Source: Leptolyngbyaceae cyanobacterium M33_DOE_097 (GTDB taxonomy: Bacteria; Cyanobacteriota; Cyanobacteriia; Leptolyngbyales; Leptolyngbyaceae). From it: a stretch of 35,379 nt of DNA. The position numbers and the translations under genes were made by a program. The first letter of the stretch is position 1. Every line of letters starts with the position of its first letter. The stretch spans positions 1 to 35,379 of the forward strand of contig DVDV01000059.1 of NCBI GenBank assembly GCA_015296075.1. The letters run 5' to 3'. Under the pieces are notes generated by a model that saw only the letters and a list, made by a program, of their open reading frames with translations, made no database searches and was not told where the DNA came from. Positions 1 to 35,379 of this stretch are shown here, piece after piece.

Positions 1-122
1 AAACATTTGTACTGTAGCCAGAGTGTCTAAAGACTTGTGCACTCAATGTTATAAACGGCAGAATGCGGGTTTCAGCCATTCATAAACGTTAAAACCGGAC
101 GTTTTTATGAGAATCATTCTCA
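1..122 (+). repeat. Direct repeat copy A, Fur-box promoter region
   Basis: These 122 bases align without gaps to 35258-35379. I count 24 mismatches, so about 80% identity. The best conserved parts are the first 15 or so bases, the stretch around ACGGCAGAATG and the last 15 bases. The copy ends in a 7-1-7 palindrome and lies 58 bp before the exporter gene, so it is probably a duplicated iron-responsive promoter. No open frame is evident in it. The family may have more copies elsewhere in the genome. Confidence 0.85.
108..122 (+). promoter_or_regulatory. Fur box upstream of siderophore-type exporter
   Basis: The 15-mer TGAGAATCATTCTCA is a perfect inverted repeat of two 7-bp arms around one base. 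This is the known 7-1-7 Fur operator layout, TGATAAT-N-ATTATCA, with G/C at the fourth position of each arm. A further half-site (GAGAATTG) follows at about 127-134. It lies 58 bp upstream of an exporter of the siderophore/cyclic-peptide family, so Fur repression under iron sufficiency is the natural inference. Confidence 0.7.
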
Positions 123-179
123 TATCGAGAATTGCTGATCTGAATGGGCTGGACTAGCAAGTTATGGCCGATTTAGTGG

Positions 180-1904
180 ATGATGAAATTCGCCTTTGAG
201 AATTCTTCGCCTGTCCGGCCAACTATGAGTCTTTTCCAATTCCTCTTGCAATCCTCGTGGCGGTTAGTTGCGATCGCAACCCTAACTGGCATCATTAGTG
301 GCGGCAGTAGCGCGGCAATTATTGCTGTCATCAACTACGTAACTGAACACGACTTCAATAACTCCCCGCTTTACATCGTGTTGGGGTTTATCGGGTTAGT
401 GCTGCTGTCATTAATCACCAACTTTATTAGCCAGCTCACTCTGATTCAACTGGCGCAGCAGGCGATTTTTGACTTACGACTGCGGCTCGCCCAACGCATT
501 CTCGCGGCTGACTTACCCCAACTCGAATCGCTCGGTGCGGCGCGACTGCTCGCGACCCTGACCGATGATGTGCAGGCCGTATCTGATGCAGTGCGACTGA
601 TCCCCTTCATTTTTGTGGATCTGGCGATCGCGGGTGGTTGCTTTATCTACATCACGTTTTTATCCTGGCAGGTGACCGTGCTAGCCCTGATCATGCTGGT
701 GGTGTGTCTGCTCATTTATCGCAATCTGTTGCGACGGGCGCGCACTAAATTAGCCTTGGCTCGCGAAGAACAAGACAGCCTGTATCAACATTTTCGGGCA
801 GTGACCGATGGCACCAAAGAGCTAAAACTGCACTACCAACGCCGACAAGCCTTTTTGCAGGAAGACCTATGGCAAACCGCAGAAGCTTATCGCCGCTATA
901 ACGTTGAAGGCTTAAGCATGTTTGCCATCATTTCTAACTGGGGCAAAATGATGTTCTTCTTCATGATTGGGCTGGCGTTGTTTATCTTGCCAGAGGTCAT
1001 GGCCGTCTCCCCCACGATGCTGTCAGGTTACATCTTGAGCTTTACCTACATGGTCGGCCCGATTGATAGCCTGATCAATCGCTTGCCTGTAATCAGCCGT
1101 TCAGGGGTTGCGCTTGAAAAGATTCAGTCGTTGAATCTGATGCTAAACGATCGCGCTGAAAAGACAACGCCGCCCCCTGCAACGCTACACAACTGGCAGA
1201 CGCTCCAACTCAAACGGGTGACTCACACCTATGGTAGCGATCGCGATGACAGACGATTCATCTTAGGTCCGCTTGACCTGAACTTACACCCCGGCGAGAT
1301 TGTGTTTTTAGTGGGTGGAAACGGCAGTGGCAAATCGACTCTAGCGAAGATCATTACCGGGCTTTACATCCCTGAAAACGGCGAAATTTGGTTCGATAAC
1401 ATCCCCATTACCGATAGCAATCGCGAGTGGTATCGGCAACATTTTTCAGTAGTCTTCGCTGATTTCTTTTTGTTTGCTCGGCTCTTGGGGCTACAAGATC
1501 CCAACCTTGAACAGCAGGCGACCAAACGATTGCGACAATTGCAACTCGACCATAAAGTCACCATCGAAGCAGGTACGCTTTCAACAACGGCCCTATCTCA
1601 GGGGCAACGCAAACGGCTAGCGCTCTTAACCGCCTATCTTGAAGATCGTCCCGTTTACCTGTTTGATGAATGGGCTTCTGACCAAGACCCTGTCTTCAAA
1701 GATTTGTTTTACCGGGAGTTGTTACCCCAACTACGTGATCGCGGCAAAGCCATTATCGTGATTAGCCACGATGACCATTACTTTCATCTGGGCGATCGCC
1801 TGATCAAGCTTGACTATGGGCAACTCGAATATGAGCGATCGATGCCTTATCAAGACTTGTCAAGTAGAGAAAATGATGCAAACAAAATATTAGATGATTG
1901 GTAG
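180..1904 (+). CDS. Cyclic peptide/siderophore export ABC transporter
   Basis: A half-size ABC exporter of 574 residues. An N-terminal transmembrane domain (about residues 20-310, several hydrophobic segments) is fused to a nucleotide-binding domain. The Walker A GGNGSGKST is near residue 378, the signature LSQGQRKR near 471 and the Walker B YLFDEWASDQ near 492. The domain layout and the phrase LLSGYILSFTYM-like TM region fit the SyrD/PvdE family, which exports cyclic peptides and siderophores across the inner membrane. The start is either of two tandem ATGs at 180 or an ATG at 225 (MSLFQFLL), which better matches family N-termini; neither has a strong ribosome-binding site. The Fur box upstream supports a siderophore role. 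The actual substrate cannot be read from sequence. Confidence 0.85.
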   Translation: MMKFAFENSSPVRPTMSLFQFLLQSSWRLVAIATLTGIISGGSSAAIIAVINYVTEHDFNNSPLYIVLGFIGLVLLSLITNFISQLTLIQLAQQAIFDLRLRLAQRILAADLPQLESLGAARLLATLTDDVQAVSDAVRLIPFIFVDLAIAGGCFIYITFLSWQVTVLALIMLVVCLLIYRNLLRRARTKLALAREEQDSLYQHFRAVTDGTKELKLHYQRRQAFLQEDLWQTAEAYRRYNVEGLSMFAIISNWGKMMFFFMIGLALFILPEVMAVSPTMLSGYILSFTYMVGPIDSLINRLPVISRSGVALEKIQSLNLMLNDRAEKTTPPPATLHNWQTLQLKRVTHTYGSDRDDRRFILGPLDLNLHPGEIVFLVGGNGSGKSTLAKIITGLYIPENGEIWFDNIPITDSNREWYRQHFSVVFADFFLFARLLGLQDPNLEQQATKRLRQLQLDHKVTIEAGTLSTTALSQGQRKRLALLTAYLEDRPVYLFDEWASDQDPVFKDLFYRELLPQLRDRGKAIIVISHDDHYFHLGDRLIKLDYGQLEYERSMPYQDLSSRENDANKILDDW

Positions 1905-35143: not shown

Positions 35144-35257
35144 TTTTTGCACACCTTCAGAATGACCATCCATCCAATTTCACAAAATAATTTTGGCGCA
35201 AAAATTGCGCGCTGAATTCACAGGTTGGAGGCTCAATTTCCAGCAATTCTCATTTTG

Positions 35258-35379
35258 AAACATTTGTACTGAAGTCAGAGCCTCTAAAGGCTTGTGCGCT
35301 CAATTTTATGAACGGCAGAATGGGTATTCCAGCCATTGATAGCTGTTCAAAATGAATATTTTTGTGAGAATTATTCTCA
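35258..35379 (+). repeat. Direct repeat copy B, Fur-box promoter region
   Basis: The second copy of the 122-base repeat, ungapped against 1-122 at about 80% identity. It ends exactly at the window edge with a Fur box (35365-35379). By analogy with copy A it probably is the promoter of an iron-regulated gene beginning just outside the window to the right. Confidence 0.85.
35365..35379 (+). promoter_or_regulatory. Fur box at right edge
   Basis: TGAGAATTATTCTCA is a perfect 7-1-7 palindrome identical to the left-end Fur box except for the central base. The gene it controls is not in the window. Confidence 0.65.

Follow-up and report, generated by a model that had tools for sequence, protein, structure and literature searches.

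What kind of sequence repeats at the two ends of the window (the whole stretch analysed, 35,379 nucleotides), and does the palindrome that closes each copy mark an iron-regulated promoter? An ungapped alignment of bases 1-122 with bases 35258-35379, both read in the same orientation, has 24 mismatches, a count that was given in an earlier note on this DNA and proved exact on re-check, as did the perfect 7-1-7 palindrome at both ends. No third match to the repeat exists within the window, the next best place having about 69 mismatches. The earlier note read the pair as a duplicated iron-regulatory module. The account favoured here, with a probability of roughly 95%, is instead that the repeat is a 154-bp MITE, probably moved in trans by a helper insertion sequence, that its palindrome is most likely a motif for transposition, and that the edges of the window are assembly breaks. 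The features of the window that bear on this reading are collected in Table 1.

Table 1. Coordinates of the repeat copies and adjoining features in the window.
Feature	Position	Strand	Evidence or remark
Right-hand 137 bp of A-subfamily MITE (copy A)	1..137	+	Same sequence at dozens of other contig ends
Palindrome TGAGAATCATTCTCA, the so-called Fur box, inside the MITE's conserved right-terminal block	108..122	.	Sequence
Right terminal inverted repeat GAGAATTGCTG of copy A	127..137	-	
Position of the 9-bp target duplication (ATCTGAATG) of copy A	138..146	+	
Cyclic-peptide export ABC transporter, host gene outside the element	180..1904	+	TIGR01194, 6.6e-141
9-bp target-site duplication CTCAATTTC of copy B	35232..35240	+	Recurs on partner contig C266 (L184)
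Left-hand 139 bp of B-subfamily MITE (copy B)	35241..35379	+	Last 15 bp lost at contig edge
Left terminal inverted repeat CAGCAATTCTC of copy B	35241..35251	+	
Palindrome TGAGAATTATTCTCA of copy B	35365..35379	.	Sequence

The window is an entire contig (G000:C287, 1-35379) of a 6.96 Mb genome assembled in 437 contigs, and both copies lie at contig ends for that reason. The earlier suggestion of contig breaks at a multi-copy element is borne out, and the boundaries of the window are assembly breaks at the repeat. That they coincide with the edges of the repeat holds in part: both fall at the element, but the element continues past 122 bases. Copy A runs on to base 137, where it closes with its terminal repeat, and copy B already starts at 35241. 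The contig edge cuts off the initial 17 bp of copy A (CAGCAATTCTCATTTTG). The 122-base limits are a product of the assembler and not the element's own. A complete A copy, 154 bp long, is found at G000:C73:16243-16396 (L061); the 154-bp element starts with CAGCAATTCTC and ends with GAGAATTGCTG, its terminal inverted repeats. It is short (a MITE is under about 600 bp) and contains no transposase ORF.

Searching the genome with the 122-base copy, as had been proposed earlier, gave at least 40 perfect matches, nearly all of those listed being at contig ends. Pattern searches located 114 left ends and 109 right ends, again nearly all at contig ends, so that the element is present at no fewer than 110 places and its ends make up roughly one in four of the contig ends in the assembly. 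Every contig that continues to the right has ...TTCTCA TATCGAGAATTGCTG followed by unique sequence; in those that continue to the left, unique sequence always precedes CAGCAATTCTCATTTTG AAACATTTG... Two near-invariant subfamilies are present, A (at the window start) and B (at the window end). In each, at least 40 left-end copies are identical across 137 bp, and these dozens of identical copies point to a recent burst. The predicted dispersed multi-copy family exists, but as a MITE and not as a set of iron promoters. A search of plasmids did not find the MITE. In L061 (G000:C73), at 743-1044, an A copy stands tail to tail with a B copy in inverted orientation, with 9 bp between them (GCCTAACCT). 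Near 14528 in L151 (G000:C15), a solo 21-bp MITE right end follows unrelated sequence and is possibly a deletion remnant; it was considered as the end of an autonomous element and rejected, since no transposase is found there.

Insertion leaves a characteristic mark. Flanking sequence was compared for about 100 left ends and 98 right ends: 65 left/right pairs had an exact 9-mer beside the element in common (0.04 expected), and none shared 10 or more bases. The subfamily was always the same within a pair (31 A/A, 34 B/B and no mixed pairs). These pairs establish a 9-bp target-site duplication and also rejoin contigs broken at the element; the window's copy B, for example, pairs with contig C266 through CTCAATTTC. 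Flanks without a duplication partner number 37 on the left and 33 on the right; copies may have recombined with one another, or some ends may be absent from the list. Copy A is among the unpaired: a left partner with the 9-mer ATCTGAATG is absent from the assembly, even with one mismatch allowed. Terminal inverted repeats, a target-site duplication of fixed length and a high copy number, all found here, are features of a MITE, here a 154-bp non-autonomous element with ends CAGCAATTCTC and GAGAATTGCTG and a 9-bp duplication of its target.

The insertion sites were examined by removing the element and one copy of the duplication and scoring ORFs of at least 80 aa. Of the 65 restored sites, 31 lie inside such an ORF, compared with 81% for random points; insertions thus favour intergenic gaps, yet often interrupt genes. 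Many interrupted ORFs are restored in this way, clear cases including ORFs of 1461 (the longest), 886, 694, 648 and 608 aa.

The genes beside the element bear on the proposal that it is a duplicated iron-promoter module marking a co-regulated regulon. Outward-reading genes adjoin the palindrome-bearing end in 22 instances, and among the 20 of these tested against Pfam no iron-uptake or siderophore gene was found. A Fur promoter has its site at a metal-uptake gene, and none of these 20 outward neighbours places the palindrome there. They include a dehydroquinase, a relative of inositol monophosphatase, MFS, VTT-domain and caspase-like proteins, AraC, AI-2E, an exonuclease, ArgJ, HlyD, HypA, an M16 peptidase, Ycf66, the ferredoxin-thioredoxin reductase alpha subunit and a PemK-like protein. 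The downstream genes, which were to be inspected, are thus not iron-uptake genes among those tested, and about half of the paired copies lie inside ORFs; the idea of a co-regulated iron gene set is not supported. The exporter after copy A fits the cyclic-peptide exporter family TIGR01194, which includes siderophore exporters. Ten further window genes tested, however, include no siderophore-synthesis gene and show no siderophore cluster; the next gene after the exporter is a relative of phosphoribulokinase/uridine kinase. Set against terminal inverted repeats, 9-bp target duplications, interrupted ORFs and neighbours of unrelated function, which identify a transposable element, a duplicated iron-promoter module is barely credible. 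The case warns against inferring promoter function from repeats at contig ends.

If the repeat is a MITE, something must be made of its palindrome. The sequence TGAGAATNATTCTCA occurs in both copies, within the conserved block at the right end. It has the 7-1-7 form of a Fur box and resembles TGATAATNATTATCA, with two positions off the canonical form. It can also be described as two inverted copies of the heptamer TGAGAAT, which is part of the terminal repeat as well. The right block of subfamily B is TGAGAATTATTCTCATACTGAGAATTGCTG, in which the left half of the palindrome repeats TGAGAATT from the terminal repeat. Of the 26 rows in an alignment of related elements, 21 have the palindrome with no more than one asymmetric pair. 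Its outer part, TGAGAA...TTCTCA, persists in relatives, and the inner T-A pair is replaced by C-G, C-A or C-C in nine of the 26. Some related MITEs have the same left end and no palindrome at all (e.g., L216, L221 and L225). Since the palindrome consists of two inverted copies of a heptamer shared with the terminal repeat, it most likely serves transposition, perhaps by providing extra transposase sites. A centre that varies among relatives, together with MITEs that do without the palindrome, fits a motif of the element better than a Fur operator.

That a Fur-type regulator binds the palindrome is possible but unsupported. The Anabaena FurA consensus, AAATAAATTCTCAATAAAT, contains ATTCTCA (PMC4005646), so a member of the Fur family might bind. 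The palindrome resembles the cyanobacterial FurA box (PMC4005646) in its 7-1-7 form and its ATTCTCA half-site, and differs from it in lying inside a transposable element, in having a centre that is not conserved and in having neighbours that are not iron-related. The stronger version, in which the palindrome would be a working operator for FurA, Zur or PerR conserved in the body of the element, can point to the retention of the form in most alignment rows and to the placement of the intergenic insertions, 11 of 34 being between divergent genes and 23 having an outward right-hand gene. The bias in orientation is weak, though (12 '++' versus 5 '--'), the inner pair that varies belongs to the Fur heptamer, that heptamer is the same as the terminal repeat's, and the neighbours are not iron-uptake genes. 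Nor was an exact copy of the palindrome with C or T immediately before it found in this genome. A working operator is on balance unlikely. Were it real, a recent dispersal of more than 100 metal-responsive sites across the genome would have rewired promoters or titrated the regulator; the MITE family makes it testable whether such elements spread regulator sites. A diverged palindrome away from any contig end, CTGAGAATGGTTCTCA at G000:C78:16883-16898, might represent either an old MITE or a site of the host.

The preferred reading, a MITE with a transposition motif, calls for a source of transposase, and a candidate was recognized through a relative. In that genome (G009), a terminal-repeat pattern search detected convergent terminal repeats 1419 bp apart that enclose a 446-aa transposase ORF. 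Searched against the genome of the window, this protein has 14 matches. Three of them overlap and represent one degraded copy; the others, at contig edges, are the ends of a collapsed multi-copy insertion sequence. The two ends of this resident insertion sequence lie at about six and five contig edges, and its middle portion is missing from the assembly. Its termini begin CAGCAATTCTCAGTATGG, and three copies have matching 9-bp duplications. The genome thus holds a candidate autonomous partner whose ends and duplication length match those of the MITE. Because both are shared, the resident insertion sequence would move the MITE in trans and is its likely helper. The two have no more than about 17 bp of their ends in common, and origin of the MITE interior by deletion from the resident insertion sequence was rejected on that account.

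The transposase of the relative (G009/L213) is 46.7% identical over 94% of its length to WP_013335080.1 of Gloeothece verrucosa, a plasmid-borne protein annotated as an ISNCY family transposase and encoded between CAGCAATTCTCATTTTG ends, at which no duplication is visible. ISNCY stands for 'not classified yet'. Through this homologous transposase the helper would be of ISNCY type. Membership in the IS701 family was not indicated, the score being a marginal 19.1 bits against a cut-off of 170 (NCBIfam). The MITE differs from an ISNCY insertion sequence in being without an ORF and having only the ends in common.

Bacterial MITEs such as the Correia elements of Neisseria, or Nezha and other MITEs of cyanobacteria, are likewise short, non-coding and multi-copy, with inverted-repeat ends, target duplications and larger relatives that have matching ends (PMC10969869). 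Sites for host proteins on MITEs are also known, for example the IHF site in Correia (PMC10969869). The present family differs from known bacterial MITEs in its own ends (CAGCAATTCTC) and 9-bp duplications, in the Fur-like palindrome of its right-terminal block and in a middle block, AACGnnAGAAT..G..TTTCAGC, shared across genera. A literature search with the terminal repeat sequence gave only unrelated matches, mainly primer-type, and none of the papers searched joins Fur box, insertion sequence and MITE. This is an ordinary MITE family that is new in detail. It can be defined as a recently amplified family with a likely helper and three conserved blocks, present in Leptolyngbyaceae and other cyanobacteria.

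Homologous elements are found in 27 of 144 relatives and in 47 of 388 genomes of the class, this genome being counted in both, and many of the elements have perfect 9-bp duplications. Diverged copies are spread across many cyanobacterial genera, with Leptolyngbya and Phormidesmis among the named hosts. Alignment of the related elements defines the three conserved blocks as the left 30 bp, the middle AACGnnAGAAT..G..TTtCAGC and the right 30 bp. Such conservation could in principle reflect a structured RNA encoded by the repeat, and whole-element folds do have z values of about -4.2 to -4.4. With the terminal repeats and palindrome excluded, however, the mean z of the interior is -0.13 over 27 copies; RNAalifold shows little besides the terminal stem, and there is no credible Rfam match. 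A structured RNA is therefore very improbable, and with no folding signal in the interior, conservation is more likely to act at the level of DNA.

The middle block, MITE positions 71-93 (about 54-76 of copy A), is retained across genera by almost every related element, even by those without the palindrome. Other sets of MITEs also occur in relatives. Four (L215, L217, L218 and L222) are 122 bp long and have the same terminal repeats with a different interior, three of them with perfect 9-bp duplications. GC-rich inverted repeats are found in a related set, about 131 bp long (L207 and L228).
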